Shown here piece by piece: positions 22,686 to 50,496 of a stretch of 64,000 nt of DNA. The translations under genes were made by a program, and so were the position numbers. The stretch lies in contig NZ_JSVC01000021.1 of assembly GCF_000814475.1 (NCBI RefSeq), positions 62,001 through 126,000 on the forward strand. The letters are read 5' to 3'. The DNA is from Flavihumibacter solisilvae (lineage in GTDB: Bacteria > Bacteroidota > Bacteroidia > Chitinophagales > Chitinophagaceae). The notes beneath the pieces were generated by a model that saw only the letters and a program-made list of their open reading frames with translations, did no database searches and was not told the origin of the DNA. The first letter of the stretch is position 1; every line of letters starts with the position of its first letter.

Positions 22686-22716
22686 TGGCTTTGATTTTCG
22701 GGTACGTAAATACAAA

Positions 22717-22760
22717 AAAAGCAGATAGTAGACACTATCCGCTTTACACACATGAGAAAA
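22717..22760 (-). terminator. Hairpin repeat copy A: terminator of the IS1595-like gene 1
   Basis: On the minus strand an imperfect stem (GATAGT/ACTATC core, 22724-22739, with GC pairs outside) is followed by seven T residues, as expected of an intrinsic terminator. The element, including the adjoining 17-nt block TTTTCTCATGTGTGTAA, recurs at 23557-23597. The two stems differ at paired positions (GA/TC here, GG/CC there), so base pairing has been conserved. Confidence 0.8.
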
Positions 22761-22768
22761 AAAAATCG

Positions 22769-23419
22769 TTATGCCTGTAGTTGCATTTCGTGCAACGGTT
22801 GTTTCTGAATCATTTGCATCAGCTTAAGCTGCATATTTTCATTGCGATAATTGTACCGAAATTCACATTCCTTGATATGCAGGTATAAAGTATTCCTGTT
22901 CAGGCCCCTGAATTTCATGAGCCGGCTCCTGGTAAGCCCCCAAAACCCGGAAATATCATCAGAAGAAAGTTTTCCATTGGCGCTGGAGATAATGTCTCGC
23001 CGGTAAAGCCTCCAGTTTGTGAAATCTGCCACGGCCTGAATAGCGCTCATTTGATGTTTAATTTCGCCGGAATGCTGTTTTTGCCAGCTAATCAGGTTTT
23101 CCTTTGACATTTCCATGAGTCCTGTGGAATATACCAGGCCATTCCAACGTGTAAACCCGAAAAATAGTGTCCTTGGAAGACCGTTTGTGCTGTGGAACAG
23201 GGAAATATGATTTTCTGGCAAATGCTGAAGCGGAAAGGCTTCATCACAATACATTGCCAGCCTCGTCCTGATCATTTTCAGGTATGCGTTGATGGTTACC
23301 CTGCTGACCCCGGTGATCGCTGCGATCTGGGTAGCGGTCAGGTCCTCACAAAACAGGTTCACTATTTCCCGGCACTTTCTTTCTGAAAGATGTGCGCCTT
23401 TAAGCATTCTATTTTTCAT
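22769..23419 (-). CDS. IS1595-like transposase-derived protein without catalytic residues (copy 1)
   Basis: The protein has 216 residues. The N-terminus (about 8-52) is the IS1595-type helix-turn-helix: LSERKCREIVNLFCEDLTAT then QIAAITGVSRVTINAYLKMI. The C-terminus is the conserved IS1595 block ISGFWGLTRSRLMKFRGLNR and YLHIKECEFRYNYRNENM. In active relatives the first block reads I-E-x-F-W; here Glu is replaced by Ser. The region that should hold the first catalytic Asp (D-E-x-Y-F-G) has been deleted down to about 25 residues. The protein therefore looks like a domesticated, DNA-binding relic. A close paralogue lies on the other side of the Sus operon. I saw no terminal inverted repeats. Confidence 0.75.
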   Translation of the reverse strand: MKNRMLKGAHLSERKCREIVNLFCEDLTATQIAAITGVSRVTINAYLKMIRTRLAMYCDEAFPLQHLPENHISLFHSTNGLPRTLFFGFTRWNGLVYSTGLMEMSKENLISWQKQHSGEIKHQMSAIQAVADFTNWRLYRRDIISSANGKLSSDDISGFWGLTRSRLMKFRGLNRNTLYLHIKECEFRYNYRNENMQLKLMQMIQKQPLHEMQLQA

Positions 23420-23556
23420 CCGGACAGGTTATTGGTTACTAGATTACGAAGGCGTTCGGAGATAAATATCAGATCAAATTGGCGCAGCAAAAACATAATA
23501 TACACAAGTGGATAATTACCGGGATAAACAGTTCATGTTGATATATAAATAATTGA

Positions 23557-23597
23557 AAAGCAGGTAGTGGAAACTACCTGCTTACACACATGAGAAA
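23557..23597 (-). terminator. Hairpin repeat copy B: terminator of Sus operon 1
   Basis: A perfect 9-bp stem GCAGGTAGT/ACTACCTGC closed by a GGAA tetraloop on the plus strand (23560-23581) is followed on the minus strand by TTTTCAATT. It lies 60-100 nt after the last Sus operon 1 gene. It shares the 17-nt block TTTTCTCATGTGTGTAA and most of the stem with copy A. The two copies form direct repeats of about 40 nt bracketing the IS1595-like gene 1. Confidence 0.75.
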
Positions 23598-23656
23598 ATC
23601 TATACTTCGGCTGCGTGAGAAGATGCCGGGCTGCAGCCGGAGCCGGCAAATCGAGG

Positions 23657-24295
23657 TCATTTATAAAACTCCCTTACCTGGGTTCCATATCCCGCGTTGT
23701 TTACACGCCAAAAGGCAGCACCTTCCGCAAATGAGATCTCATCAAGAGAGGTCGTTCCTTCCACCGTAGGCTGGTCCGGAGCCGTATAAACTCCAAGTTC
23801 TGTTTCAACCATATAAACGATGGTGTTAACCCCTACGCCAGCCCCGCCCGGGTTAGTTATCTTATAAACGCCTTCCCCTAATTGCTCCATGATCATTTCA
23901 ACCCCCGTCTGCGGGCGCACATATGTTCCTGACCTGTCTGTTGTTCCGGTCACATCTGTGACAGCAACTTTACGCGCCACAGTTGTTTCAAATCCATTTG
24001 CATTTGCAGCGGTGAAGATTACCAGGTATAGTCCTGGTTCAGCTGTATTTACATTGTCAGATACCGCCTCGAGGGGTGACTCCTGGCCGGTTATATCGTC
24101 TTTAACTATCGCTCCGGCATCGGTATAGGAAGCCCCCACCGGCAGTATCACAACTTCATCCCCATTGAGGATTATTTCAGGGTAACTGACTTTCACTTCA
24201 CGCGAAACGCTTTCAGTGTCGTCTTTCTCGCAGGATGTAATAAGAACTACCGCGGACATTGCAACAATGCTCAGCCTGATTTTATGGAATAGCAT
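23657..24295 (-). CDS. Surface lipoprotein with DUF5011-type Ig-like domain (Sus operon 1)
   Basis: The 212-residue protein has a lipoprotein signal (lipobox LITSC, Cys22) followed by the acidic tract EKDDTES. This resembles, but does not prove, a surface-export signal. Residues about 38-115 form a DUF5011/HYR-like domain (YPEIILNGDEVVILPVGASY; DAGAIVKDD; PGLYLVIFTAANANGFETTV). The C-terminal part (about 125-212) has no recognised fold. It is the last gene of the operon, 18 nt after susD, in the position normally held by a surface glycan- or ligand-binding accessory protein. The ligand is unknown. Confidence 0.8.
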   Translation of the reverse strand: MLFHKIRLSIVAMSAVVLITSCEKDDTESVSREVKVSYPEIILNGDEVVILPVGASYTDAGAIVKDDITGQESPLEAVSDNVNTAEPGLYLVIFTAANANGFETTVARKVAVTDVTGTTDRSGTYVRPQTGVEMIMEQLGEGVYKITNPGGAGVGVNTIVYMVETELGVYTAPDQPTVEGTTSLDEISFAEGAAFWRVNNAGYGTQVREFYK

Positions 24296-24313
24296 ACAAT
24301 TCAGTTTTAAGGT

Positions 24314-25825
24314 TTAATTCTGACCGGTGGTATTCACATCCCACCAAACTTTATCGGTTACCCTTTTTTGCGGAGGAGTGTTTGGATTCCGGCTGACTTC
24401 AGAGTCGCCATATAACAGCCTTACCGGGAAGGAATTCCCGATGCTGCTGGTTTTAGAAATCACAAAGAAATCAGGATATCCGGTGCGACGCCATTCACTC
24501 CAGGCCTCCACATTCTGCGATCCCGTGAAGCTGACCCATTTTTGGGTTATTATACTCCTGATCTGCTGTTCAGCCGAACCTCCAGCTGGAAACTGAACCT
24601 GTGGCCTGGCGATATATGGAGCAAAATCATCTGTTTCATCTAATCCCAGGAAAAGGAAGGAAGAAAGGACGCCGTTTTCATATAATTCCTGGGCATTGCC
24701 ATTACCCCAGCCGCGGGCTACTGCCTCTGCCTGTAAAAAGAAACTTTCAGCTGCGCTCAGAAAAATGACGGGTGCATCAGCACCTCCATCATCATCATCC
24801 GGAGTCGGGGGACCACCGACCGCCGGACCAGGCTTGGAATAACTGTCATCATCCTGGTTGCCCGTAAGATTGGCACCATTACCCTGGTCAATGCCCGCAT
24901 GGTTTCCTGCGTTCGGTGCAAATGTTGCCCGTGCAAAAAACACATCAACTCTCGGATCATTTATAGAAATCAGATATTCGAGACTGGTGTTGCTTGCAAT
25001 GAGGTTTGCAGGAGTCAGTGCTTCATAAGTCGCATAGAGGGGATTCTGATTGAATTGTTCCGTGTTGAACGGAACAAACGCATCCTCCTCAAAATCCAGG
25101 AACTCTTCCCCTGCAGCGTACATCGCACTTATCCCGGCCTGGGCAACATCAGGGCGTACATAAGCCTGCCGCAGGTAGATCCTGAGCTTAAGTGTATTGG
25201 CAAACTTCCTCCAGAGAAACATGTCTCCATGGAAAAAGAAATCATCTTCACCTGGATGATTAATGCTTTCCTCATCGATCAATGCAAGTCCTTCGTCCAC
25301 CAGCCTGATCAGGCCATCATAGATCTCCTGCTGTGAATCAAATTTCGGCGTAATATTCACCGGTGCACTAAGAGCTTCACTGAATGGAATATCTCCATGC
25401 AGGTCTGTCATCACCTGGAACATATATGCCTGCATTATTTTACCTATAGCAACATAGTTGTTACTACCTGTCCTTGTTCCTTCATCAACCAGGTAGCGAA
25501 AGTCCTGTATGGGACCGGAATACATACCCTGCCATTGGTTGTCAAAGTCTGTACTGTTTATTGAATACTGATCATAGGCCTTGTATTGGCTTGCTGTTGG
25601 CCCCTGCGTCCAGAACTGTGACCATAAACCGCCTATGATCTGGAAGGGGTTCCCAAGGTTATATGCGCTGTATCCCAATGCCGTTGGCAGAATCACATCA
25701 ACGGATGCCGTGGTAGGATTATTGGGATCATCGTTTACATCGAGGTAGTGTTTGGAACATCCGGGAAATGACAGGACCGTTCCAGCTACTAGCAGCGCTG
25801 CAATGATTTTATAGCTGTATTTCAT
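24314..25825 (-). CDS. SusD/RagB-family outer-membrane lipoprotein (Sus operon 1)
   Basis: This 503-residue lipoprotein has lipobox SFPGC and a mature start SKHYLDVNDDPNNPTTASVD, typical of the SusD-like_2 group. The family helical block KIMQAYMFQVMTDLHGDIPF precedes the TPR-like core (LRIYLRQAYVRPDVAQAG), and the conserved C-terminal ITQKWVSF and EAWSEWRRTGYPDF are present. It sits on the outer surface as a lid over the SusC barrel and delivers substrate to it. The start is 16 nt after susC. No carbohydrate-active enzyme or peptidase is nearby to suggest the substrate. Confidence 0.93.
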   Translation of the reverse strand: MKYSYKIIAALLVAGTVLSFPGCSKHYLDVNDDPNNPTTASVDVILPTALGYSAYNLGNPFQIIGGLWSQFWTQGPTASQYKAYDQYSINSTDFDNQWQGMYSGPIQDFRYLVDEGTRTGSNNYVAIGKIMQAYMFQVMTDLHGDIPFSEALSAPVNITPKFDSQQEIYDGLIRLVDEGLALIDEESINHPGEDDFFFHGDMFLWRKFANTLKLRIYLRQAYVRPDVAQAGISAMYAAGEEFLDFEEDAFVPFNTEQFNQNPLYATYEALTPANLIASNTSLEYLISINDPRVDVFFARATFAPNAGNHAGIDQGNGANLTGNQDDDSYSKPGPAVGGPPTPDDDDGGADAPVIFLSAAESFFLQAEAVARGWGNGNAQELYENGVLSSFLFLGLDETDDFAPYIARPQVQFPAGGSAEQQIRSIITQKWVSFTGSQNVEAWSEWRRTGYPDFFVISKTSSIGNSFPVRLLYGDSEVSRNPNTPPQKRVTDKVWWDVNTTGQN

Positions 25826-25841
25826 ACAATCATTTTTTGAA

Positions 25842-28800
25842 TTAGAATATCACTTTCAGATTCGCTCCGTAACTGCGGATCGATGGTACTGTTCCATATT
25901 CAAACCCCTGCACGTTACCAGAACCAAACGAACTTGTTTCGGGATCAGCGTAGGTGTTTTCAGATGGAGTCCACAGCAACAGGTTCCTTCCGCTTACACC
26001 AACAATAATGGCACTCATAGGCCAGTTCTGGATCCACTGTTTCGGAATCCTGTAACTCACACTTACTTCTCTTAATTTGAGGAAGCTGGCATCGATCAGC
26101 TGACCGATTGAATTATTTGAGGAATAGTTTGTCCAGTAATCCTGCGCGTCGAGTGTCGGAGTAGTATTAGGCTCAAACTTGCCATCGGATGTTTCGATTA
26201 CACTGTTTGGCACAACGAAAGGTTCACGGTTGTTATATAGTGTTCGTGGATCGGTTCCGACAAACTCCTGTAAGGACATAGTCCTCGAATAAAACACACC
26301 ACCTTTTTTTGCATCAAGCAGGAAGGAAAGACTGATGCCTTTATACGTAAATGTATTAGTAAGGCTTGCCAGGTAATCGGGCTGAATATTGCCATGAATT
26401 CTCGCGATTGGATCAGTAAGCGGATACCCTGTAGCGGCATCAACCACCACTCTTCCCTGGGGATCTTTCTGAAAGCCTGCACCAAAAAACGATCCGTATG
26501 GCTCACCCACTTTGGCAACAAGTGTCGCGCCGACGAAACCACCCAGGCTGATCTGCTCGATTCCTGAGAAGAGTTCCTTCACCTTGTTTTGATTGTGTGT
26601 AAATGTTCCGGTTATTTCCCAGGTAAAGTTTCTGCCTCTCACGGGTTGACCACGAAGCAGCACTTCCACTCCTTTATTGGTAATAGAACCAGCATTTAAT
26701 GTCTGGTTGGTATAACCGGACGATGCCGCAATAGGAACCGTTACAATCTGGTCACGGCTTTCATTGGAATAGTAAGTAAATTCAATTCCAAGCCTGTCTT
26801 TGAAAAATCCAAGATCTGCGCCGATCTCAAATGATGTGGTGATTTCCGGTTTCAGCTCAGGATTGCCGATTATATCACCCTGGGTATATCCCGGAACGCC
26901 ATTCAGCGGAAAGTTGATCAATGAATTCTGGTAGCCGTCAGTTATTAACGAATTGTTCGGATCGGTGGTTACAATCGCCGGCACAAACACCGATTGCAAC
27001 GAATATGGTGGTGCATCATTACCCACCTGTGCTATACTTGCCCTCAGCTTGCCATATGTAAAGAATTCCGGCAACTGGAATAGTTCACTGAATACGAGAG
27101 AAACGTTGGCACTGGGATAGAAGAAACTGTTGTTATCCTTGGGTAAAGTTGATGACCAGTCGTTACGTGCTGTTATGCCGAAGAACAGGTAATTCTTGTA
27201 AGCAAAATTGATATCTGTATAAATACCCCAAAGTCTCCTGTTGATTATCTGGTTTATTGCGGTTGGCCTGTTCAACGAGTTGGCTAAAGTGTATACATTA
27301 GGAACAATCAAGCCATTTGCTGTACTGATCTGGGAGTTGAAATCGCGTTGGCGAACATTATGTCCCACAAGCACGGAAAGGTTCAGATCTTCACTTAACT
27401 TTTTCTTGAATGTTGCCATCAGGTCTGATGTCAGTTCACGGATGTTGATTGTGGTCTCTTCATATTTTCCCTGGAACCTGTTGTCATAGTTCTGGTTGTT
27501 GGGATCCGTTATAATTCTCTTGGATTGGATCTGCCTCCTCTTGTCTGCAGAAAAATCTGTTCCGATCCTGTAGTTGATGTCCAGCCATTTTGCAGCCCTG
27601 TAACCAACCTGCACGTTTGCAATTAACCTGTCGACATTAGTTTTATACGCATCCTCGCCAAGCAGGTACCAGGGATTAATTGTGTAGGCTCCATAATATC
27701 CATACAGGTCATTGAATTTATTCTTGTAGTCTTTTAATTCGAGCAGGGAGATGTCGCGCGGAGTTTGCAGCACCTGGTCGTATGGTGAACCGCTTTGTCC
27801 CTGTATAGAAAGATCACCCGTTGCCTTAATATAATTGACACTGGCACTGCTATAGAAATTATTGGAGAATTCAGTATTGGCACTCAGCCGTACAGATGTG
27901 CGTTGATATTCTGTTCCGGGCATGATCCCTTTCTGATCAACGTTATTAAATGAAACGAAATAGGCAGACTTATCGTTGTTCTGGGAAAACGAAACGCTGT
28001 TCGTCCACGTTCTTCCGATGTCAAAAAATTCTTTTACGTTATCCTCCAGCCCGACGTAAGGTTTAACGCGCATCGAATCACCGACTTGTTGTCCCCACGG
28101 CTTTACCAGGCCATCGAAGGCAGGTCCCCAACTGAAATTTTCTCTTGAATCCGGCTCTTTCTTTCCGCCTTGCCCATATGAGTTCTGAAAATCCGGAAGG
28201 CGTAGAATCTCATCAAAGTTGTATGCACTTGATACAGTGATCTCAGTTTTCTTTCCTCCCCTGAGTTTTCCTGATTTCGTGGTAATTACCAGTGCACCGT
28301 TTGAAGCACGGCTGCCATAAAGTGCAGCAGCCGCCGGCCCTTTAAGCACGGTAACTGATTCAATATCGTCAGGATTTATATCGTTGCCCCGGTTACCCGC
28401 ATCAACCTGGTTGTTAAGGTTATCGCCGGCATCGATCTGCGAATTGTCGATAGGAATACCATCCACCACCATCAATGCCTGGTTGTTACCTGTGAGCGAT
28501 GTGCCGCCCCTGAAAACAATCCGTGTTGAACTTCCCACACCACCTGAACTTCCGGTGATCTGAACACCAGCTACTTTACCCTGCAGGGAATTAAGTACAC
28601 TCCTGTCCTTTCCCCTTGTGAGTTCGTCATTCTTAATAGTGGAAGTGGCGTAACCGAGACTTCGCGCTTCTCTCTTGATTGCATTTGCAGTAACAACTAC
28701 TTCATTCATCTGGCTCGCCTCCTCTTCCAGGATAACAATCATCTTGTCACTGGGAGGAACTTTGGCCTCGTAAGTCTTGTAACTGATAAATGAAAAAACC

Positions 28801-29012
28801 AGTGTGGTTCCTTCAGCAACACCGGATAGGGAAAACTCGCCCGTTTGACTTGTCTGTGTTGCCTTCGTTCCACCCTTTACAGAAACAGTAACACCTGGAA
28901 TGGGAGCGCCTGTCTTGGAGTCAGTAACGCGTCCTGTGAGGACGCGGTCTTGTGCTAACGTATTCGCCAATGCGAATACCATCAGCAAGCATAAGCATAG
29001 CATTTTCTTCAT
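25842..29012 (-). CDS. SusC/RagA-family TonB-dependent transporter (Sus operon 1)
   Basis: ATG 29012 gives MKKMLCLCLLMVFALANTLA and 1056 residues; the frame extends back to a TTG that adds only seven residues. After the signal peptide comes a carboxypeptidase-like domain (RVLTGRVTDSKTGAPIPGVT), a TonB-box region (MNEVVVTANAIKRE), the plug domain (GKVAGVQITGSSGGVGSSTR, ALMVVDGIPIDN) and a 22-strand-type barrel ending SYGANLKVIF with a terminal Phe. It imports large nutrients through the outer membrane in a complex with SusD. The 367 nt upstream lack a regulator gene but contain a palindrome array. Confidence 0.95.
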   Translation of the reverse strand: MKKMLCLCLLMVFALANTLAQDRVLTGRVTDSKTGAPIPGVTVSVKGGTKATQTSQTGEFSLSGVAEGTTLVFSFISYKTYEAKVPPSDKMIVILEEEASQMNEVVVTANAIKREARSLGYATSTIKNDELTRGKDRSVLNSLQGKVAGVQITGSSGGVGSSTRIVFRGGTSLTGNNQALMVVDGIPIDNSQIDAGDNLNNQVDAGNRGNDINPDDIESVTVLKGPAAAALYGSRASNGALVITTKSGKLRGGKKTEITVSSAYNFDEILRLPDFQNSYGQGGKKEPDSRENFSWGPAFDGLVKPWGQQVGDSMRVKPYVGLEDNVKEFFDIGRTWTNSVSFSQNNDKSAYFVSFNNVDQKGIMPGTEYQRTSVRLSANTEFSNNFYSSASVNYIKATGDLSIQGQSGSPYDQVLQTPRDISLLELKDYKNKFNDLYGYYGAYTINPWYLLGEDAYKTNVDRLIANVQVGYRAAKWLDINYRIGTDFSADKRRQIQSKRIITDPNNQNYDNRFQGKYEETTINIRELTSDLMATFKKKLSEDLNLSVLVGHNVRQRDFNSQISTANGLIVPNVYTLANSLNRPTAINQIINRRLWGIYTDINFAYKNYLFFGITARNDWSSTLPKDNNSFFYPSANVSLVFSELFQLPEFFTYGKLRASIAQVGNDAPPYSLQSVFVPAIVTTDPNNSLITDGYQNSLINFPLNGVPGYTQGDIIGNPELKPEITTSFEIGADLGFFKDRLGIEFTYYSNESRDQIVTVPIAASSGYTNQTLNAGSITNKGVEVLLRGQPVRGRNFTWEITGTFTHNQNKVKELFSGIEQISLGGFVGATLVAKVGEPYGSFFGAGFQKDPQGRVVVDAATGYPLTDPIARIHGNIQPDYLASLTNTFTYKGISLSFLLDAKKGGVFYSRTMSLQEFVGTDPRTLYNNREPFVVPNSVIETSDGKFEPNTTPTLDAQDYWTNYSSNNSIGQLIDASFLKLREVSVSYRIPKQWIQNWPMSAIIVGVSGRNLLLWTPSENTYADPETSSFGSGNVQGFEYGTVPSIRSYGANLKVIF

Positions 29013-29379
29013 AGAAAAGTTAGTTTTGTCCAATTAAAATTATCTTAATAGGCAGGAGCATGAAGGTGGAATTACAAAGCATGTTCTCCGGTCATGAAAA
29101 CTTGAACTTCACCGTTTCAAATTCGCCTTCATAAAAATTTATCAGGAATTATTTCCCAGCGGATTGAATCTTATATGAATGGAAAGAAGAAGAAAGGTTG
29201 GAACTGAAAAAATGTTAACAGGCGATTAATTACTTGATAACTTATCAAACAATACTTATCAACACGCTGAAATGCCCTGCTGATAAGCATTTCACGGCTT
29301 ATAGCATATTCCGGTTATCTTGTGGTAAGATATGGTACTGTGACGAATGGTTATTTTTAAAACATGAATGGTTGTACGG
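29013..29379 (-). other. Upstream region of Sus operon 1
   Basis: No gene is present in these 367 nt between susC and the second IS1595-like gene. They hold the promoter region of Sus operon 1. The proximal 150 nt are A/T-rich without a convincing TAnnTTTG box. The distal part has the TTATCAA dyad array at 29234-29262, a possible hairpin GAAATGC...GCATTTC (about 29269-29293), and near-repeats ACGAATGGTT/ATGAATGGTT near 29345-29370. Confidence 0.55.
29234..29262. promoter_or_regulatory. Candidate operator array TTGATAA-C-TTATCAA plus a third half-site
   Basis: A perfect 7-bp inverted repeat with a 1-nt centre, TTGATAA-C-TTATCAA (29234-29248), is followed by a third TTATCAA at 29256-29262. The two direct copies are exactly 14 nt apart. 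It lies about 220 nt upstream of the susC start and about 120 nt downstream of the IS1595-like gene 2. Confidence 0.5.
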
Positions 29380-29991
29380 TTAGTCTGCAGGACGGAGGTT
29401 AATCAACTGGAGGATCAGGCTGTTCATGTCTTCATTCCGGTAGTTATATCTGAATTCACATTCTTTGATGTGGAGGTAAATCGTGTTCCTGTTCAGTCCC
29501 CTGAATTTCAACAAACGGTTTTTGGTCAGCCCCCAGAATCCTGAGATTTCATCCATTACTGCACGGCCGTTGCCATTCGCGGATTGGTCGAGGCGGTAAA
29601 TTTTCCAGTTGCTGATATCAACGACTGCCTGCATGAGACTGCTCTTCTCTTTCATCTGTTCAGGATCCATTTTATTCAAATCGGAAATCTGGTCCCTGTT
29701 CATACTTTCAAGCGCAGAAGTATAGATGTGATTATTCCATTTACTGAATGCAAAAAAAACTGAAGAAGGTATGTTGCTGTTATCGTTCCGATGTGGGAAA
29801 AATGGATGTTCCTTCTCGCAACTGCTGGCGATCTTTCTCCGGATCATTTTCAGATACGCATTGATCGTAATCCTGCTGACCCCGGTAATATGTGATATCT
29901 GGGTGGCCGTGAGGTCCTCACAGAAAAGATAAACTATCTCGCGACACTTGCGCTCGGTAAGATGCGCTCCCTTAAGCATTCTATTTTTCAT
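29380..29991 (-). CDS. IS1595-like transposase-derived protein without catalytic residues (copy 2)
   Basis: The 203-residue protein is a clear paralogue of the one at 22769-23419: an identical start MKNRMLKGAHL, the helix-turn-helix ERKCREIVYLFCEDLTATQI, and a near-identical C-terminus (ISGFWGLTKNRLLKFRGLNR, YLHIKECEFRYNYRNEDM). The same catalytic loss is seen: Ser replaces Glu in I-E-x-F-W and the D-E-x-Y-F-G segment is missing. A possible second Asp remains in QAVVDISNWKIY. The middle third has diverged and differs in length. It lies immediately upstream of Sus operon 1 on the same strand, the position a local transcription regulator would take. Regulation is inferred only. Confidence 0.75.
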   Translation of the reverse strand: MKNRMLKGAHLTERKCREIVYLFCEDLTATQISHITGVSRITINAYLKMIRRKIASSCEKEHPFFPHRNDNSNIPSSVFFAFSKWNNHIYTSALESMNRDQISDLNKMDPEQMKEKSSLMQAVVDISNWKIYRLDQSANGNGRAVMDEISGFWGLTKNRLLKFRGLNRNTIYLHIKECEFRYNYRNEDMNSLILQLINLRPAD

Positions 29992-30126
29992 CGTTTTGGT
30001 TGAAGGGTAAAGACAACAGATAGAATACTAATACATCATTCACTCATGAAATTGATGATAAATCATGAAAACATAAACACAATATATATGAGCGGGTCAG
30101 ACAAGATAAGGGAGATGCACGGACTT

Positions 30127-32193
30127 CTAATTTTCCAGCATTGTCATGAGACGGTCACGAACTTTTTCTGCATTTGGCAGCATAGCTGATTCCAGGATGG
30201 TATTCATCGGAACAGCAGGAAGATTCAGAGCTCCCATAACTTCAACAGGAGCATCAAGCCAACGAAAACATTTTTGTGAAATGCGTGCGGCCAGTGCTTC
30301 TGCGAAAGAGTTGTTTTGCTGTTCTTCAGTTAGCACCAGGCACTTACCATGCTTTTTTACAGTTTCGAAAACAAGGTCTTCATCAAGCGGATACAGGCAT
30401 CGCAGGTCAACTACTTCAACCTGTCCGGGCAACGCAGTTGCCGCAGCTTTCGCCCAATAAACACCCATGCCATAAGTAATGACGCAACAACTGTCTCCTT
30501 CTTCAACGCGAAGCTGGAACGCAGGTAAAACAATGGCTGCTTTCCCGAGAGGCAGGATATAATTTTCATCGGGTTCCACTGTGCGGGCAGACTCCGTTCC
30601 CGGTACCTTACTCCAGTAAAGCCCTTTATGTTCCAACATTACGACCGGATTAGGATCGAGAAATGCCGCTTTCATTAAACCTTTCATATCCGCAGCGTTT
30701 GACGGATATACAACTTTGATGCCCTTTATAGACAACAATGTTGTTTCAATGCATCCACTATGATAGGGACCACCTCCGCCGTATGCACCAACAGGGACTC
30801 TGATGAGTGCCTGGACCGGAAATTTTCCGCAGGTCAGGTAACAGGATTTTGAAATTTCCGTTACCAGTTGATTAAAGCCAGGATAGATATAATCCCCAAA
30901 CTGCACTTCAACAATCGGCTTCAGCCCTGTGGCACTCATTCCAACAGTTGATCCTATAATATAAGCTTCCTGTATGGCAGTATTGAAAACGCGGTGATCG
31001 CCGAACTGGTCAGCAAGTGTCGCGGCTTCCCGGAACACACCACCTAACCTTTTCCCGACGTCCTGTCCATAAAGTATCGCTTCGGGATATTGTGCCATAA
31101 TTTCACGGATGGCGAAAAGGGCGGCATCTACCATCATGATCCTGTCACGCCCCTGCGGTTCCCGGATTCCTGATTCTGTAATTACCGGGGTCGGAACAAA
31201 AATATACTCGCCCACTTTTGCAGGATCGGGCTCAGGCGCAGCAATAGCCAACTGGAAGGCTTCTGAAATTGTATTCGCTGCATCATGCTCCAGGTCAAGA
31301 ATTAACTCTTCCCCCGCACCATGCTCCAGCAGGTAATTTCTTAAAAGTATCCGGGGATCACGTGTCGCATGTGCATCAAGGTCGGCATCACTTCGGTAAA
31401 ACTCCTTTCTTACCCCGCTTGTGTGATGACCCAGCAAAGGGACATTTGCCTGTACCAGGTGCGGCCTTCGGTTATGCCTTACTGATTGTACGATCTTTCC
31501 CATTGCATGGAAGCTTTCAACAAAATCACTTCCATTGATCCGTGACCTTTCCATACCGTAAAATCCGCCTGCATATTCATAAGCGTCCATTGCCCTGGAT
31601 TCTTCTGCACAGACGCTGATGCCCCAACGATTGTCCTGTATCAGGTAAATGATCGGCAACTGTTTCAACACTGCGAACTGGAGTGCCTCACTCACTTCTC
31701 CTTCGGTTATGCTGGCATCTCCGAGTGAACAAACAACTACCGGTAATGAACCATCCCCGTTCTTCCGTAAGGTTGACGGCAGATATTTCTCCCGGAACTG
31801 CAGGCCTTGCGCGATGCCGGTAGTTGGGATCACCTGCATGCCGGTTGCACTGCTCTGGTGGATAATGGTTGGCTTGTCCGGGCCTGAATAGTTCGGATGT
31901 GAGTAATATTCCCTCCCGCCCGTGAAAGGGTCGTTGGCCTTAGCCAGCAGCTGAAGCATTAGTTCGTATGGAGAAAAACCAAGTCCTAGTAAAAGACTTT
32001 CATCACGGTAATATGGACTTACATAGTCTGCAGGTTGCAGGTGATATGCTGTGGCCAGTTGAATGGCTTCATGGCCGCGGGAAGTGGAGTGAACGTATTT
32101 ACAGATAGACCGATGCTGTTCGTAGGTCACCGCCATATTGTTTACAAGGCACATATGGCGGTAAGCCTGCAATAGAGTTTCTTTGGCAATCAT
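30127..32193 (-). CDS. Fused 2-oxoacid dehydrogenase E1 (alpha + beta), second paralogue
   Basis: ATG 32193 gives 688 residues; an upstream codon at 32214 lies inside an exact -7 box and is rejected. The alpha half (about 1-340) has STSRGHEAIQLATAYHL and the ThDP motif GDASITEGEVSEALQFA ending IQDNRWGIS with the canonical Asn. The beta half (about 355-688) has ILYGQDVGKRLGGVFREA, FNTAIQEAYIIGSTVGMS and the C-terminal transketolase domain. It shares the fused layout of the larger E1 at 6612-9005 but is shorter and diverged. It may serve a different 2-oxoacid (pyruvate, branched-chain or acetoin type). No E2/E3 is adjacent. Confidence 0.88.
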   Translation of the reverse strand: MIAKETLLQAYRHMCLVNNMAVTYEQHRSICKYVHSTSRGHEAIQLATAYHLQPADYVSPYYRDESLLLGLGFSPYELMLQLLAKANDPFTGGREYYSHPNYSGPDKPTIIHQSSATGMQVIPTTGIAQGLQFREKYLPSTLRKNGDGSLPVVVCSLGDASITEGEVSEALQFAVLKQLPIIYLIQDNRWGISVCAEESRAMDAYEYAGGFYGMERSRINGSDFVESFHAMGKIVQSVRHNRRPHLVQANVPLLGHHTSGVRKEFYRSDADLDAHATRDPRILLRNYLLEHGAGEELILDLEHDAANTISEAFQLAIAAPEPDPAKVGEYIFVPTPVITESGIREPQGRDRIMMVDAALFAIREIMAQYPEAILYGQDVGKRLGGVFREAATLADQFGDHRVFNTAIQEAYIIGSTVGMSATGLKPIVEVQFGDYIYPGFNQLVTEISKSCYLTCGKFPVQALIRVPVGAYGGGGPYHSGCIETTLLSIKGIKVVYPSNAADMKGLMKAAFLDPNPVVMLEHKGLYWSKVPGTESARTVEPDENYILPLGKAAIVLPAFQLRVEEGDSCCVITYGMGVYWAKAAATALPGQVEVVDLRCLYPLDEDLVFETVKKHGKCLVLTEEQQNNSFAEALAARISQKCFRWLDAPVEVMGALNLPAVPMNTILESAMLPNAEKVRDRLMTMLEN

Positions 32194-32211
32194 AACAGGT
32201 GCAATCGGAAG

Positions 32212-32219
32212 CAAATATA
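32212..32219 (-). promoter_or_regulatory. -7 promoter element of the second E1 gene
   Basis: Read on the minus strand, TATATTTG is an exact TAnnTTTG match, 18 nt before ATG 32193. It rules out the in-frame codon at 32214 as the start. Confidence 0.6.
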
Positions 32220-32250
32220 AACGAACACCTGTTAGTTTTACGACTCCGGT

Positions 32251-32862
32251 TTATTTTATTTCAATGTTAAACATGGATTTATCGTCCATGAACCCTTCCA
32301 GTTCATCTCCGACAACGCATTCTCCAACTCCATCGGGTGTACCGGTAAATACGAGATCCCCAATGTTTACACTGAAATAATTGGAAATATGTGCAACTAT
32401 TTTGTCAAAGTTGAAGATCATCGATCCTGAGTTTCCGATCTGGACCTGCTCCTTGTTTTTCTGCAGGCTAAAGTTGATGTCTTTCTTATTCTTGACCTCT
32501 TCAAGGTTAACCCATTTGCCAATAACAGCTGAATTGTCCCATGATTTTGCTTTCTCCCAGGGTAGCCCCTTTTCCTTGAGCTCGGCCTGGATATCACGGG
32601 CTGTAAAATCGATACCGACAGTTACAGCATCATAATATTTACTTGCGTAGCGGTCCTGGATATATTTGCCGTTTTTGCAAATCCTTAATACCAGTTCGCA
32701 TTCATAATGTAGTTCGTTTGTGAATTCCGGGTAATAGAAGGGTGTATGCGATTGCAGCAATGCGCTTTTTGGTTTCATGAACACGACCGGTTCGAAAGGA
32801 ACTTCGTTTCCCAATTCCTTGGCGTGTGCAACATAGTTACGGCCTATGCAGAATATTTTCAT
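32251..32862 (-). CDS. Fumarylacetoacetate hydrolase-family enzyme
   Basis: With ATG 32862 (MKIFCIGRNYVAHAKELGNE) the protein has 203 residues; a GTG two codons earlier is possible. FAH-fold motifs are the metal-binding pair in HYECELVLRI (Glu-x-Glu), VGIDFTARDIQ with the metal Asp, and the lysine in GLPWEKAKSWDNSAVIG. VFTGTPDGVGE closes the core. Single-domain members act as acylpyruvases or oxaloacetate tautomerases/decarboxylases. It probably uses Mg2+ and acts in the cytoplasm on small 2-oxo acids. Its position between the E1 gene and pth gives no firm pathway. Confidence 0.88.
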   Translation of the reverse strand: MKIFCIGRNYVAHAKELGNEVPFEPVVFMKPKSALLQSHTPFYYPEFTNELHYECELVLRICKNGKYIQDRYASKYYDAVTVGIDFTARDIQAELKEKGLPWEKAKSWDNSAVIGKWVNLEEVKNKKDINFSLQKNKEQVQIGNSGSMIFNFDKIVAHISNYFSVNIGDLVFTGTPDGVGECVVGDELEGFMDDKSMFNIEIK

Positions 32863-42284: not shown

Positions 42285-45200
42285 TTAGAAGTTCAGTTTC
42301 AGGTTAAAGCCGATAGACCTTGTTCCGGGGAACTGACCGTTCTCACCATACGTGTTACTGATTTCAGACGGATCGAAATCTCTTGTTTTGGCATAGATCA
42401 GCCATGGGTTGCGGGATACAACAGAGAAAGTAGCGCCTTGAATTACTTTGCTGATGCCCATTTTCTCCAGGTTGAAACGGTATCCGAGACTTACCTCACG
42501 AAGTTTAATGAATGTCAGATCGTGAATGCTGTTCTCAGAGATCTTGTTGGTCTGGAACTGGTGCCAGTATGTCTGAGCTTCTACATAATAGCTAACTGCT
42601 TTTCCGTCAGCATCTACACCCTCAACATGCACACCACCACCGTCAGCAACTGCATCACGGACTGGGTTGCCTTTATCATTGACTGTAGCTGTTTTCGCAG
42701 TCAGACCAGAGAATGAACCCCAGAAATCTGAAAGGGAGAAAAACTTACCACCGTGTTGGTAGTCAATGTTGAAATTCAGGTAAAAGTTCTTGTAAGAAAT
42801 GCTGTTCTGAACACCACCTGTGTAGTCAGGAAGTACTGAACCGAAGTACACTTCAGCCTCACGAACGTGAAGTCCATTGGCATCAAGTACTGGCTGTCCG
42901 TTGATACGCTTGAAACCAGGTCCGAAGAGCTGACCCCATGGCTTACCTACTTCGTTTACAACGTATGCACCATAAGTTGTCGCAAATGCACCTGAGTTAT
43001 CATAGGTGATCCTGTTAATACCAGGTGCGATGTCAACGATTTTGTTCTCAAGAAGTTTCGCATATGTAGCAGAAATCTCCCACTGGAAATCCTTTGTGCG
43101 GATCGGAGCCACGTTAACAAGCACTTCCACACCTTTTTTCGAAATTTCACCCACATTGGTCAGGTATTGAGAGAAACCTGATGTACCTGTAACTGGAAGA
43201 GGTAAGGGGAAGTCCTTAACTGTACCATCCCAGTAAGTGAATGCAAATCCGAAACGGTTCTTCATGAATTTCATGTCAAGACCGAGTTCACGCTGAGTTG
43301 AAACGGCACCTTTAATAGCCGGGTCAGGCAGCTGGTTCGGAGTGTTCATCAGGATATTACCATTCCACTGGTTAGTCGCAATAGAATAGTTGAATCCTGT
43401 CTGGTACGGAGTAAGTGCCTGAGGAATTTCACCCCATGATGCACGCAGTTTACCATAAGAAATAATCGGAGCGATATCTCTCAGCAGGTCACTGAATACG
43501 AAGCTACCACCGAAGGATTTGCTCAGGATTCCATTGTCGTTAGCAGGGAGAGTTGAGAAATAGTCCTGGCGCAGGGTAAATTCTGCAAACAGCATGTTTC
43601 TCCAACCCACGTCACCTCTTACGAAACCTGAACGATATTTAGAATCTTCACGGTAGTTACGGTAGCTGATCGGGTTTTTAGAGTTGTTGAGGGCAAAGAA
43701 GTCAGGAACAACCAGGCCATTGTTGGTATTGGCATAGATATCCTTGTATTTGTTCCTCATGATATCGAAACCAACGTTCGCGTTAACTGAGAAGTCTTTG
43801 ATCTTTTTGTAGTAAGATAACAGACCTTCAAAGTTTTCACGGTTAGAATAGCTTTCCCTTGTTTCGTAGTAAGCCTTGGTACCAGTCTGTGTTGCACTGC
43901 TTTCAATGATTGATTTTGTCTTGTACTCAGAGAAAGTAGTCAGCTGGTTCTTACGGTAAGTAAGCTTAACCTTCAGGTCATTTGTGATTTTGTATCCCAG
44001 TGATACATCACCGAAAAGACGGTCACGGTTGTTCAGGTTACTTACATTATCGAAATAAGAATAGAAGTTATACCAGTAGTTACCGCCATAGAAGTTAAGC
44101 GGGTTTGAAGCGTTATACACATCAGGGTTCTTGTGGTTCCAGCTGGCCAGTGCTCCTTGTGGAGAACGCAGGTCTTTCAACTCCTTCATGATGCCCATAT
44201 CGAGATCACGATGGAACCACTGGTTAAATGAACCGGATGACTGGTTTGAATATCCGTCGTTGAATTCACCTCTTGTTACCTGGTTAAGGTAAGTGATATT
44301 GGCACCAAGCGTAAGGCGGCTTGTAACATCAACAGTTGTGTTCAAAGCGAGGTTATTCCTGTTCATGCTTGAATTCGGAATAAGTCCCTTTACACCCAGG
44401 TTAGTGTAAGAAAGACGAAACGTATAGTTGTCTGCAGCCTTTGAAAAGCTAACGTTGTTATTCAGCGTTACACCTGTGTTGTAGAAGTCTTTAGAATTAT
44501 CTTCCTGCGGAGTGAGCTTCGCCGTCTTATAGGAATACTTGGAATCAGGGTACCATGCATACCAGGGAATGTATTCCTGTCCTACCATTCTCGGACCCCA
44601 GCTGGCGTCATCTGAATAGTCATGATAGTACTTTCCGTCGAGTGCCTGCCATTCTTCCGGCATTCCCGGCTTCCAGGTAAATTGCATAAGATCAGTTACA
44701 CCACCACCAGCGTAAGAATTCTGGTAGTTCGGAAGGATATAAACCTTGTCGAAAGTAACACCACTGTTTACTTCAACACCGATACCCTTTGCATTTTTCT
44801 TAGCTCTTTTGGTAGTGATTACAATAGCACCGTTTGCACCTTGTGCACCAAAGATCGCAGATGCTGCAGGTCCCTGCAGTACAGTCAGATCTTCAATGTC
44901 GTCAGGGTTGATATCACCAGATGCAGATGTCGGAATTACCGTACCATCCACAACATACAGTACTTCTGAGGCTCCTGTAAGTCCTGATTCACCACGGAGA
45001 CGCACAGACGCATATCCGTTTGTTCCCAATTTAGCAGCAGACTGGCTTCTTACCTGTACACCAGCTACTTTACCTGCCAGTGCGTTGTTAACGTCTGTCT
45101 GGCGGATCGTGTTAAGTTTTTCATCGGAAATAGATTGTACAGTTGAGCTTGTACTACGCTGCGTACGCTTCATGTTGTAAGCTCCGGTTACAACCACTTC

Positions 45201-45506
45201 CTGCAATCCCTGCTCACCGGCTCCCTGCAATGCAATACTAACCATGGACTGTTCGCCAAGGGTAATATTGTTCGCTTTCTGACCAATTGCAGACACCTCA
45301 ATTACATCGCCGGTCTTTGCTTTGATGGTAAATACCCCGTTTACATCGGCTGAAACGCCGCCGGGGTGGCCTTTTACTTTGACTGATGCATAGGGAATGG
45401 GATTCCCCTTCTCGTCAACAATCTTTCCTGTAACAGTGCGAGTCTGGCCGAATGCTAATGAACAGCAAAGCGACCCGATCACCATTAGTGATAGGACTTT
45501 TCTCAT
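42285..45506 (-). CDS. SusC/RagA-family TonB-dependent transporter (Sus operon 2)
   Basis: The 1073-residue protein starts MRKVLSLMVIGSLCCSLAFG with a signal peptide. A carboxypeptidase-like domain (TVTGKIVDEKGNPIPYASVK) and a TonB box/plug follow (LQEVVVTGAYNMKRTQRSTS; LAGKVAGVQVRSQS; VLYVVDGTVIPTSASGDIN). The beta-barrel ends TRSIGFNLKLNF with a terminal Phe. It should form the outer-membrane import pore with the adjacent SusD and the DUF1735 lipoprotein. About 300 nt of upstream DNA contain no regulator gene. Confidence 0.95.
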   Translation of the reverse strand: MRKVLSLMVIGSLCCSLAFGQTRTVTGKIVDEKGNPIPYASVKVKGHPGGVSADVNGVFTIKAKTGDVIEVSAIGQKANNITLGEQSMVSIALQGAGEQGLQEVVVTGAYNMKRTQRSTSSTVQSISDEKLNTIRQTDVNNALAGKVAGVQVRSQSAAKLGTNGYASVRLRGESGLTGASEVLYVVDGTVIPTSASGDINPDDIEDLTVLQGPAASAIFGAQGANGAIVITTKRAKKNAKGIGVEVNSGVTFDKVYILPNYQNSYAGGGVTDLMQFTWKPGMPEEWQALDGKYYHDYSDDASWGPRMVGQEYIPWYAWYPDSKYSYKTAKLTPQEDNSKDFYNTGVTLNNNVSFSKAADNYTFRLSYTNLGVKGLIPNSSMNRNNLALNTTVDVTSRLTLGANITYLNQVTRGEFNDGYSNQSSGSFNQWFHRDLDMGIMKELKDLRSPQGALASWNHKNPDVYNASNPLNFYGGNYWYNFYSYFDNVSNLNNRDRLFGDVSLGYKITNDLKVKLTYRKNQLTTFSEYKTKSIIESSATQTGTKAYYETRESYSNRENFEGLLSYYKKIKDFSVNANVGFDIMRNKYKDIYANTNNGLVVPDFFALNNSKNPISYRNYREDSKYRSGFVRGDVGWRNMLFAEFTLRQDYFSTLPANDNGILSKSFGGSFVFSDLLRDIAPIISYGKLRASWGEIPQALTPYQTGFNYSIATNQWNGNILMNTPNQLPDPAIKGAVSTQRELGLDMKFMKNRFGFAFTYWDGTVKDFPLPLPVTGTSGFSQYLTNVGEISKKGVEVLVNVAPIRTKDFQWEISATYAKLLENKIVDIAPGINRITYDNSGAFATTYGAYVVNEVGKPWGQLFGPGFKRINGQPVLDANGLHVREAEVYFGSVLPDYTGGVQNSISYKNFYLNFNIDYQHGGKFFSLSDFWGSFSGLTAKTATVNDKGNPVRDAVADGGGVHVEGVDADGKAVSYYVEAQTYWHQFQTNKISENSIHDLTFIKLREVSLGYRFNLEKMGISKVIQGATFSVVSRNPWLIYAKTRDFDPSEISNTYGENGQFPGTRSIGFNLKLNF

Positions 45507-47250: not shown

Positions 47251-50200
47251 TTAGAATTTAATTTTTGCGTTTACACCGATCTGGCGGGTAGTGGGATAAG
47301 CACCACTCTGGTAACCCTGCGCATTACCTGCAGAAAGATTTTCCTCAGGATCTGAATAAGGTAGGTTCTTGTGGATGATCCACAGGTTCCTTCCGATCAC
47401 AGAAAGATCAATTCCTTTTACCGGGCCGAGTTTAGAAACCATAGCAGTAGGGAAAGAATACGTAAGGTTCAATTCACGCAGTTTCACATAGCTTGCGTCG
47501 TACACGAAAGTGTGTGCAGGGTTGAAGGAATATCCATAGGTACCGTAGATGTTCTCAACACGGATATCATTTGGTTTTCCATCAGGTTTAACACCAGGAA
47601 CAATAATTCCACCACCGTCTGCAACTGCATCACGTGAAGGATTGCCCTTGTCATTAAGTTGAGCAGTTTCCTCGTAGAGACCGGTAGCGAGACCATAGTA
47701 CATGTCCAGTGAGAATACATCACCACCTTTCTTCACATCAATTAGGAAGCCCAGAGAAAGGTTCTTGTACTTGAAGGTGTTGTATACACCGCCAATCCAG
47801 TCAGGGTTCACATTACCAATAACATTGTTGGTGGTAGTCGTCATTTTGTAACGACCGTAGTTTGCATTTTTCTTACCGTTAGACAGAAGAGGAGCATCGT
47901 CTACAACACGCTGACCATCCAACAATACCCAGGTTTTACCCTGCAGTGTACCATAAGGCTGACCAACAGTTGCGTTTACAGAAACACCACCCTGGTAAGA
48001 AGCCAGCAACTGGTTTGTGCTTTCACCATACAGGTCAATAACCTCGTTACGGTTACGTGTAAAGTTTACATTCACATTCCAGGAGAAATTCCTTGTCTTA
48101 ACAGGTGAACCATACAGAGAAAGCTCGATACCCTTGTTCTGGATATCACCAGCGTTCATCACTTTGCTGCTGTAACCTGTTGCAGTTGACACCGCAACTG
48201 AAGTGATCTGATCCCTTGTGTTAGTGATATAATAGCTCACGTCAAATCCTAAACGGTTTTTTAGGAATGCCATTTCCAGACCGACTTCCTTACTGAAAGT
48301 CCTTTCAGGCTTCAGGGTGTTGTTGTTCTTGGTATTAGGCAGGGTAAACAAAGTACCATTTCCAAAGGGAGTTGGTTTTTGATATACATCAGAGATGTAT
48401 CCCCATGGTGCATCATTACCAACTTCAGCATAGTTTGCACGGAGTTTACCAAATGACAACCAGTCAATTTGCTTCAGGTGATGAGAGAACAACCAGCTAC
48501 CAGATACTGAGTAGTAGTTATAGGCATTCTTATCAACAGGAAGTGTTGAAGAACGGTCCCTTCTGAACGATCCATCAAGCGTAAGGAAGTCACGGTATCC
48601 CAGGGTAACGCCACCAAAATAACCATCCACTGCTTTAGGCTGGTACGCTTCAGTTGGAGCAGTAATAGGGTTCACTGAGTTTGCCAGTGAATACAGTTTA
48701 GGAACTACAAGCCCACCGTTTGTCTGTGCGAATTCGCTGTTCAACGCAGACCTTCTCATGTTTACACCTGCAAGGGCCTTCAGGTTAAAATCATCATTGA
48801 GATCTTTATCGAAGTTTGCCATCAGGTCATAGTTCAACTCATGAACGTGACGGGTAAAGCGGCTATAGGACGCTGGATCAGCACTTCCCACAGCTATCCT
48901 TTCTTCCTGCAGTTCATCATAAGTATCTAATGAAACCCGTCCAAGGAAACTCAGGTAATCAGTCGCTTTGTAATTCAACGCTACGTTACCGAATACACGG
49001 TTACGGGTATCTGTTTCAAAGCTTTCGTTACGCATGAAATACGGGTTGTCAGAGTAGATGGGTACAAGTCCATCAGCAGCGGAAGGATCAGCCCAGTTCC
49101 ATGTAATGTTCTGGCCGGTTCTCTTGTATGCTGCCTTTTGCTCCAGTACATCCACATTGGTCTGGAACCACTGGCGGAATCCCTGGTTAACGTTCTTACC
49201 ATCATAACCGGTTCCATAACGGCCAGTACCATCAACTTTTGAGAAGTTAACAGAAGCTGAAGCTGTCAGTTTGTTAGTGAGGTTATAGGTAGAACCAAAG
49301 TTTACAATGTTCTTTGTAACACGGCTATTGGGAAGGATGCCCTTCTCATCGCTGCGGGTATAACCAAGTTTGAATGAACCCTTGTCGTTCGCACCATCGA
49401 GCATAATGCTGTTGTTGGTAGAGAAGGGATTCTCGAAGAACTCGACAGGCGTGTTCTTCGCAGCAACCCAGGGCCTTTTTTTCATGTAGTTGGGAGAAGT
49501 CGGATCAAATGCATCCCAATGGTACACCATAAGATTCGGATCGAACTTCTGACCGTAAGAGGCATCTTCAGTGGTAGGAACTACCCTGTCTTTTACGCCG
49601 TCGCCATCAACATCGAAATACAGGAAACCTGCATCAGGAGCTGGCGCACCGTAATCATATGCATAACCGGCGCCGTACTGGTCCTGGTATTTTGCATAAG
49701 TGTCCTTATCAATTGAACCGTAGGTAACACCGGAATTTACAGTTATACCCAGGCCTTTTTTACCTTTTTTGGTAGTGATCATGATCACACCGTTCGCAGC
49801 TCTTGAACCATAAAGAGCAGATGCCGCAGCACCTTTCAGTACGTTCAGAGATTCGATGTCATCAGGGTTGATGTCCGCTGCTGCGTTACCATAATCGTAT
49901 CCACCGCGTCCGGTCTGTTGGTTGGAAGAGTTGGTATTGCTGTTGTCGATGGGAACTCCATCCACTACAAACAACGCCTGGTTGTTGTTCAACAGAGATT
50001 TCGCACCACGAATCACCACGTTGGTAGAACCGCCGATAGAGTTACCCTGCTGAATTTGCAGACCGGATACTTTTCCGGAAAGTGCAGAACCTACGTTGGC
50101 AGTTCGGGCACCGTTGATTTCATCACCCTTCAATTGCTGCGCTGCATAAGGGAGCGTGTTCTTGTTCCTCTTCACGCCTAATGCGGTTACTACCACTTCG

Positions 50201-50496
50201 CTCAGCCCTTCCTTTGTCTGCAGGGTCACTCCCAGAACGGTCTGTGAACCTACTGCTACTTCAAAAGATTCGAAGCTGATTGCGGAAAACTCAAGAACCG
50301 CATCGCCTTCTGCATCGATCTTGAAGTTTCCGTCTTTGTCGGCAGAGACACCTTTGCTACTGCCCTTAACCTTCACAGATGCAAACGGAACCGGGTTCCC
50401 TTTCGCATCCCTCACCTGCCCGGTAATCGGCCGGACCTGTCCGTATGCTATTGCCCCGGAGAACAATAACGCGAACATTAATGATGATTTCCTCAT
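47251..50496 (-). CDS. SusC/RagA-family TonB-dependent transporter (Sus operon 3)
   Basis: This 1081-residue protein has a signal peptide (MRKSSLMFALLFSGAIAYGQ), a carboxypeptidase-like domain (ITGQVRDAKGNPVPFASVKV), a TonB box/plug (LSEVVVTALGVKRNKNTLPY; GKVSGLQIQQGNSIGGSTNV; ALFVVDGVPIDNS) and a barrel ending GVNAKIKF. It is closest in layout to the SusC of operon 2, suggesting old tandem duplication, but the barrels differ throughout. It is divergent from folD. Confidence 0.95.
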   Translation of the reverse strand: MRKSSLMFALLFSGAIAYGQVRPITGQVRDAKGNPVPFASVKVKGSSKGVSADKDGNFKIDAEGDAVLEFSAISFESFEVAVGSQTVLGVTLQTKEGLSEVVVTALGVKRNKNTLPYAAQQLKGDEINGARTANVGSALSGKVSGLQIQQGNSIGGSTNVVIRGAKSLLNNNQALFVVDGVPIDNSNTNSSNQQTGRGGYDYGNAAADINPDDIESLNVLKGAAASALYGSRAANGVIMITTKKGKKGLGITVNSGVTYGSIDKDTYAKYQDQYGAGYAYDYGAPAPDAGFLYFDVDGDGVKDRVVPTTEDASYGQKFDPNLMVYHWDAFDPTSPNYMKKRPWVAAKNTPVEFFENPFSTNNSIMLDGANDKGSFKLGYTRSDEKGILPNSRVTKNIVNFGSTYNLTNKLTASASVNFSKVDGTGRYGTGYDGKNVNQGFRQWFQTNVDVLEQKAAYKRTGQNITWNWADPSAADGLVPIYSDNPYFMRNESFETDTRNRVFGNVALNYKATDYLSFLGRVSLDTYDELQEERIAVGSADPASYSRFTRHVHELNYDLMANFDKDLNDDFNLKALAGVNMRRSALNSEFAQTNGGLVVPKLYSLANSVNPITAPTEAYQPKAVDGYFGGVTLGYRDFLTLDGSFRRDRSSTLPVDKNAYNYYSVSGSWLFSHHLKQIDWLSFGKLRANYAEVGNDAPWGYISDVYQKPTPFGNGTLFTLPNTKNNNTLKPERTFSKEVGLEMAFLKNRLGFDVSYYITNTRDQITSVAVSTATGYSSKVMNAGDIQNKGIELSLYGSPVKTRNFSWNVNVNFTRNRNEVIDLYGESTNQLLASYQGGVSVNATVGQPYGTLQGKTWVLLDGQRVVDDAPLLSNGKKNANYGRYKMTTTTNNVIGNVNPDWIGGVYNTFKYKNLSLGFLIDVKKGGDVFSLDMYYGLATGLYEETAQLNDKGNPSRDAVADGGGIIVPGVKPDGKPNDIRVENIYGTYGYSFNPAHTFVYDASYVKLRELNLTYSFPTAMVSKLGPVKGIDLSVIGRNLWIIHKNLPYSDPEENLSAGNAQGYQSGAYPTTRQIGVNAKIKF

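Follow-up and report, generated by a model that had tools for sequence, protein, structure and literature searches.

How the uptake systems of bacteria with many SusC transporters are coordinated is, to our knowledge, poorly understood, and a 64,000-nucleotide stretch of the Flavihumibacter solisilvae genome (contig NZ_JSVC01000021.1, positions 62,001 to 126,000; hereafter the window) gives this question a concrete form: what do two transposase-derived genes do on either side of a Sus operon, in a genome with 56 SusC-like genes in total? The first gene, T1 (22769..23419), encodes a catalysis-dead, IS1595-derived helix-turn-helix (HTH) protein of 216 aa, and the second, T2 (29380..29991), encodes its paralogue of 203 aa directly upstream of susC; both are intact open reading frames (ORFs) on the minus strand, and the plus strand codes for neither at these coordinates. 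An earlier note, made from the sequence alone, had recognized the two same-strand ORFs and proposed that they encode domesticated DNA-binding proteins and perhaps a new type of Sus-locus regulator. Extracytoplasmic function (ECF) sigma/anti-sigma pairs and hybrid two-component regulators sit beside SusCD operons, and none of these usual regulators was found among the nearest genes, to which the check was confined. The answer developed below is a domesticated transposase family, under purifying selection, that is linked to SusC genes and, in more genera, to a conserved RNA-like element.

Ancestry and Loss of the Active Site

T1 and T2 are 56% identical and share the start MKNRMLKGAHL and a C-terminal block, as previously noticed. 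Their IS1595-type relationship is real, though single proteins score below the curated cut-off of the NCBIfam model NF033547 (25.3 and 33.8 bits for T1/T2 versus 75), the best-matching stretch being the C-terminal part. All 31 members of the family alignment match NF033547 at E ≤ 0.01 (best 1.2e-15) and one of the 31 matches PF12762, and Pfam searches with T1 and T2 returned HTH matches only, all below threshold. When compared with relatives that carry VDESYFG...HSDGW...INGIEGFW, both proteins have Ser at the position of the catalytic Glu and lack the D-E-x-Y-F-G segment (D1), two features that the earlier note had read correctly; the second catalytic residue, D2, is likewise missing, and the DDE catalytic triad of active IS1595 transposases is absent from both. 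Among 47 homologues, the Glu position is occupied by D in 25, S in 10, E in four, F in three, T in two, A in two, and N in one, and the D1 motif was found in none of the 47, and likewise in 0 of 80 in a second count. The conserved Asp of 'IADF' was considered as the catalytic D2 and ruled out, as it aligns with the LVDLGY of active enzymes. An AlphaFold2 (AF2) model of T1 had a predicted local distance difference test (pLDDT) score of 86.4; the Foldseek/VIA structure comparison gave no transposase catalytic core among the matches listed, and a sequence search of the PDB gave two matches, with E values of 0.76 and 2. T1 and T2 are the only two family copies found in this genome, both at one locus, and no IS1595 transposase over the curated cut-off was found there.

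Distribution, Chromosomal Site, and Selection

Full or near-full homologues occur in 44 of the 294 sampled Chitinophagaceae genomes (48 with any match, four weak or short matches being set aside; the homologue of genome G191 is cut by a contig end), and the genera that carry them include Flavihumibacter, Chitinophaga, Niastella, Paraflavitalea, Pseudoflavitalea, and Pinibacter. There is usually one copy per genome, at one site and rarely two. The gene is placed after a prs-rplY-pth-FAH-E1dh run in 33 of 45 loci (the 44 fetched and the window), after E1dh in 28 of them and after FAH in five. In the window, the E1 dehydrogenase gene (E1dh; 30127..32214, minus strand) is, with FAH, pth, rplY (L25), and prs, a landmark of the place that the family usually occupies on the chromosome. 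The Chitinophaga genes (L064, L295-L343) come not after E1dh but after a gene of approximately 800 aa, which is MMPL-type by Pfam in L064.

No stop codons were found in full-length homologues. Of 55 pairs compared within genera, 24 have a dS below 1.3, and for these the ratio of nonsynonymous to synonymous substitution rates (dN/dS) lies between 0.019 and 0.174 (at 0.10 or less in 22 of them); the other 31 pairs, including the single T2 pair, are saturated or more diverged. Moreover, the family forms one clade in the tree, with a support of 100/100.

Regarding element ends, three active short IS1595 relatives have terminal repeats of 13–15 bp, with the sequence GGGTCTTATGAAG or a variant of it, that start 52 bp ahead of the ORF, and none were found for the active relatives L124 and L126. 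The earlier note had reported no terminal inverted repeats, and none of the active-relative type lies beside T1 or T2: the GGGTCTTATGAAG-type repeat shows no enrichment across the window (with up to three mismatches, 21 matches versus 16.5 expected, none of them beside the two genes), and the longest inverted repeat flanking T1, of 11 bp, belongs to the RNA hairpins described below and is equalled in length at 6 of 300 random places. One genome (G445; L145, L150, L153, and L158) carries several identical copies of a compact IS1595-type element of approximately 750 bp, with no zinc ribbon and with 13-bp GGGTCTTATGAAG ends.

Because of this orthology and synteny, the absence of stops, the low dN/dS, the loss of catalytic residues, and the lack of element ends, there is very little doubt that the T1/T2 family is a domesticated, vertically inherited transposase under purifying selection, as the earlier note had supposed. 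Neither intact DDE residues with inverted repeats at many sites, nor stop codons with relaxed selection, which the note had named as contrary outcomes, were encountered when they were looked for. An active or decaying insertion sequence is ruled out by the distribution, the mostly constant site, the purifying selection, the absent ends, and the lack of any IS1595 transposase over the cut-off in the genome.

Linkage to SusC Genes

A search for enrichment beside susC/susD genes and for purifying selection, which had been suggested as a check, gave a linkage above control in addition to the low dN/dS. In 14 of 44 genomes, from 6 of 15 genera, the gene directly downstream encodes a SusC and has the same orientation; this is so in 0 of 39 control E1dh loci that have no family gene in that place (Fisher 4e-5, with no correction for kinship). 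The controls were 40 E1dh loci hand-picked from the strongest matches on long contigs, 39 of which have a downstream gene; the genome of one (L202) carries a family gene elsewhere, and SusC is the third downstream gene in two, on the same strand in L166 and on the opposite strand in L198. At L166 (G258), the E1dh site of a genome without a family gene, ORFs of 198 and 347 aa lie ahead of SusC, and their sizes suggest a sigma/anti-sigma pair. In a sample that overlaps that of the 44 genomes, and in which L306 is counted through its T1, SusC follows in all 40 Chitinophaga-type loci (38 of them named Chitinophaga) and in 5 of the 36 other loci with a downstream gene. The adjacent SusC proteins come from several lineages, with five label changes, at least three of which are forced by starred branches (24-row tree, small background), so that SusC lineages were swapped beside the gene.

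In the window, T2 is followed on the minus strand by a susC-like TonB-dependent transporter gene (25842..29033, with MKKML... as the likely start), a susD-like lipoprotein gene (SusD-like_2; 24314..25825), and an Ig-like surface protein gene, 'BIg', the last of the operon (23657..24295; PF16403), all identified by Pfam, and then by T1; the bracketing of a Sus operon by the two paralogues, as first described, is therefore real. The same bracket is found at L034 and L306, the order T2-susC-susD-BIg-T1 being shared by genome G272 and Flavihumibacter petaseus (L306). T1 is the copy retained in all six genomes of the window genus in the 294-genome sample, the other four of which have T1 alone, beside E1dh or FAH, without a Sus operon there; thus, T2 and the Sus operon seem to come and go together, while T1 stays. 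The T1 copies of the genus form a clade (support 100/99) and T2 lies outside it, in a position that is not settled by the tree; the single T2 pair compared is 51% identical.

A Conserved RNA-like Element Downstream of the Gene

The earlier note had looked to the Sus operon and missed an RNA-like element whose linkage to the gene is wider than that of SusC (10 versus 6 of 15 genera). Intergenic k-mers revealed the motif TTTCTCATGT and, after it, a terminator-like hairpin, located 9 to approximately 450 nt past the gene, in 33 of 47 genes (counted up to 700 nt downstream, and excluding CTCATG matches at L069 and L076, where there is no element); within 900 nt, the element is found in 38 of 40 non-Chitinophaga loci. 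The hairpin is followed by a T run in 31 of the 33 gene-linked elements, whereas in the remaining two (L065 and L066) the hairpin is poor and the T run missing. The 10 nt of TTTCTCATGT are invariant in an alignment of 24 of the 33 sequences while the stem varies, and this variation is compensated, with 8 of 9 pairs altered on both sides (25 cells), a result matched in 0 of 500 shuffles.

Two strong copies flank T1 on the minus strand. Copy 1 (22710..22764), directly after T1, consists of ...TTTTCTCATGTGTGT, a terminator-like hairpin, and a T run (covariance model R1, 60.1 bits, E 8.7e-12), and copy 2 (23549..23602), between the Ig-like gene and T1 (51.7 bits, E 1.3e-9), is also marked by the direct repeat D12. 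The scan of this genome, in which 150 of 2346 candidates were scored, gave one further, weak copy (22.2 bits, E 0.05), and T2 has no element of its own.

In a family-wide scan, for which the model had been trained on gene-linked copies and 20 candidates were scored in each genome, so that E-values are rough, the element matched at E ≤ 1e-3 in 145 of 294 genomes, with one to five matches per genome; at least 101 of the 145 have no full gene, and weak matches may be ordinary terminators. Twenty gene-distant copies were fetched, some of them from genomes with a family gene elsewhere; a SusC-like gene is present on 9 of the 20 stretches and a divergent gene of approximately 345 aa on several, the four such genes tested all being histidine kinases and the two partners tested both being LytTR regulators. 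The kinase genes divergent to the copies at L236, L238, L239, and L250 are LytS-type, with a LytTR regulator too in two cases. In three genomes of one genus (L249, L254, and L255), an extra copy with a different hairpin lies by the same genes of approximately 711 and 740 aa.

Chitinophaga has a different invariant motif, GATTTAGATTTTGGTTGATGA, and a hairpin between the gene and SusC; the motif is exact in 34 of 40 loci, and the hairpin is 100% paired but covaries less strongly, both sides being altered in 4 of 10 pairs, a number also reached in 73 of 500 shuffles. Rfam gave no match at the gathering threshold in positions 20000–34000 of the window; the best match of one relative reached 19.4 bits versus a cut-off of 36, and one Chitinophaga locus had none at E ≤ 1.

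Predicted SusC Targets

The RNA motif is complementary to ATG-AGA-AAA starts. With start sites set by a heuristic, duplexes of −14 kcal/mol or below are predicted for 7 of the 56 SusC genes of this genome and for 3 of the 330 other genes, taken from 16 stretches and the window, with which they were compared (Fisher 8e-5); at −12 the counts are 11 versus 16, and at −10, 16 versus 51, and the medians of the two groups do not differ (p 0.43). For 94 genes with signal-peptide-like starts, the numbers at −14, −12, and −10 are 0, 3, and 11. With shuffled motifs, the SusC mean is as low in 3 of 300 and the share at −12 is as large in 0 of 300. One of the top three SusC matches in the genome is L371, where 15 nt match ACACACATGAGAAAA; the remaining two are the window's other SusC genes, which are predicted targets through their start-codon regions: the second SusC-like gene (42285..45506, minus strand), with a duplex of −18.4 to −18.8 kcal/mol, and the third (47251..50496, minus strand), with −16.2 to −21.3 kcal/mol. 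The genome has 10 exact copies of the 11-mer ACATGAGAAAA (versus three for a reversed control pattern); two belong to the RNA, five lie at ORF starts (two of them SusC), two lie elsewhere, and one is unclassified. In Chitinophaga, it is the second SusC downstream, and not the first, that out-pairs shuffled motifs (6 versus 127 of 400 as low), with duplexes of up to −23.3 kcal/mol in two species.

Proposed Mechanism and Alternative Explanations

The homology, the loss of the active site, the purifying selection, the conserved location, and the linkage to SusC and to the RNA element are established by computation. Since a catalysis-dead family is conserved near an RNA-like element and uptake genes, its members are probably regulators, and a role linked to Sus uptake is the somewhat favoured interpretation of these sequence patterns. 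Two observations weigh against it: something other than SusC lies downstream in 30 of 44 genomes (including genes for a LytTR protein, cation efflux, fasciclin, and an AraC-type regulator), and no shared upstream operator was seen across genera. The palindrome TCATGA was tried as an operator and rejected, since it is only mildly more frequent upstream (1.08 per kb, in 8 of 47 upstream regions) than in the remaining intergenic DNA (0.42 per kb). The proposal of a new class of Sus-locus regulator therefore holds in part: it is favoured by the linkage (14/44; 40/40 in Chitinophaga-type loci; 0/39 in controls), and it is not borne out by the neighbours in most genomes or by a common operator.

A specific protein-plus-RNA mechanism can be proposed only tentatively, as somewhat short of an even prospect. 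In this family, a compact IS1595-type transposase has become a host protein that retains the HTH and, of the catalytic domain, the C-terminal part, and has lost the DNA-cutting residues. This protein would bind DNA via the HTH and control transcription at its own locus, namely of the RNA downstream of it and, if present, of the adjacent SusCD operon, which in this genome would be susC-susD-BIg under T2. The RNA, a short terminator-ended transcript, could pair with some of the susC mRNAs around their start codons and block their translation, its targets here being the susC mRNAs of the two other Sus operons of the window. With the protein acting at its own locus and the RNA on other susC starts, the module would favour one uptake system and silence the others.

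It could also be that the protein regulates only the adjacent SusCD operon and that the element is the terminator of its mRNA, with no role in trans. Regulators commonly adjoin their target genes, SusC adjacency is observed, and 31 of 33 gene-linked elements have a terminator-like hairpin and T run; however, a terminator would not account for the 10 nt of TTTCTCATGT that stay invariant while the stem varies, nor for elements far from the gene, in gene-less genomes, or beside the gene in genera without SusC, nor for the excess pairing with some SusC starts, and such a purely local role seems rather unlikely. An unlikely reading is also that function resides in the small RNA, with the protein regulating only the RNA (or binding it) and the SusC linkage reflecting shared use of the RNA. 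This would fit the wider gene-RNA linkage (10 versus 6 of 15 genera), the SusC-like gene on 9 of 20 stretches with gene-distant copies, and the copies divergent to LytS-type kinase genes, as if another regulator had been substituted; nevertheless, in Chitinophaga, where the RNA motif is a different one, the gene stays beside SusC in 40 of 40 loci, and T2 accompanies SusCD without an RNA element in the window, L034, and L306. The element might instead be a DNA site bound by the protein, such as a relic of an element end, as its position beside the gene and its highly conserved motif would allow; however, its stems covary and mostly end in T runs, as those of transcripts would, it exists in the absence of the gene, and it is ruled out as an insertion-sequence end because it is unlike the ends that active relatives have and its motif is not enriched upstream of the gene, which leaves a DNA site improbable. 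Finally, that T1 and T2 are fossil insertion sequences, or elements mobilized in trans, beside a Sus operon by chance is scarcely credible and already contradicted: the IS1595 ancestry and the two paralogues in direct orientation are outweighed by the single (rarely double) and mostly identical site per genome, the purifying selection, the lack of element ends, and the absence of IS1595 over the cut-off in the genome.

Other IS1595-Derived Clades

A second IS1595-type clade without D1 and D2 (support 99/100) was found at L118-L123, L129, and L130, in the Bacteroidota families f24, f43, and f51, and at L133-L140. Its genes are divergent to a TonB-dependent receptor in the eight loci read at length, the receptor being confirmed by Pfam in the four tested, with HmuY in the two tested and HemS and FecCD in L119. 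Family f24 has nine second-clade genes, six of which are the same loci, with the receptor at eight and missing at L139; overall, the divergent receptor is present in 10 of 11 distinct loci, with haem-uptake genes in the tested examples. A third clade, F18 (L113-L117), is single-copy and has retained D1-like and Glu residues and lost D2; no TonB-receptor neighbour was found at its loci, and two neighbouring proteins tested gave no Pfam match.

The number of separate domestications is not settled by the tree. A broader and rather doubtful proposal would be that compact IS1595 transposases were domesticated more than once in Bacteroidota as regulators of TonB-dependent uptake loci (SusCD in Chitinophagaceae and haem hmu operons elsewhere), and that the Chitinophagaceae protein and its dedicated RNA form a two-layer switch, at promoters and at SusC start codons, that chooses between uptake systems.

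Comparison with Known Systems

The conserved dead transposase and the conserved RNA provide named, testable genes for the coordination of Sus loci. No paper in the open-licence PMC literature contains both IS1595 and SusC as whole words, none of the papers listed there on related subjects appears, from its title and the opening lines of its abstract, to describe such IS1595-derived regulators or this RNA, and IS1595 is not mentioned in the available portions of PMC10434189 and PMC8987985. ECF sigma/anti-sigma and hybrid two-component regulators share the position beside SusCD and are proteins unrelated to T1 and T2. With IS1595-family transposases (NF033547/PF12762), the T1/T2 family has in common the HTH and the C-terminal FW...KFRG...KECEFRYN block; unlike the active enzymes, it lacks D1, D2, and terminal repeats, has the Glu mostly replaced, and occupies one conserved site.

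According to the accessible sections of PMC11697453, the FopS RNAs of Bacteroides are short, multicopy RNAs, one of them derived from a 3' UTR, with a motif that pairs near susC-like start codons and represses SusC translation at the start codon, so that the idea of an RNA that targets SusC has a precedent. The predicted pairing site of the element described here is similar, a likeness in predicted function only; unlike FopS, this RNA is linked with a gene of transposase origin and has one to five scan matches per genome. Small-RNA control of SusC would, if the proposal is right, reach beyond Bacteroides. Moreover, TldR, as presented in the part of PMC13418256 that was available, is a nuclease-dead TnpB repressor recruited beside a flagellin gene, with its RNA encoded alongside. 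Both cases join a transposon-derived protein with a dead active site, a nearby host-surface gene, and an adjacent RNA; however, TldR derives from the RNA-guided TnpB, whereas T1 and T2 are DDE-type, with no known RNA guide, and their RNA is also found without the protein. The T1/T2 family would be a DDE-type counterpart of the regulators derived from TnpB, and the proteins beside haem uptake operons in other families look like a parallel recruitment.

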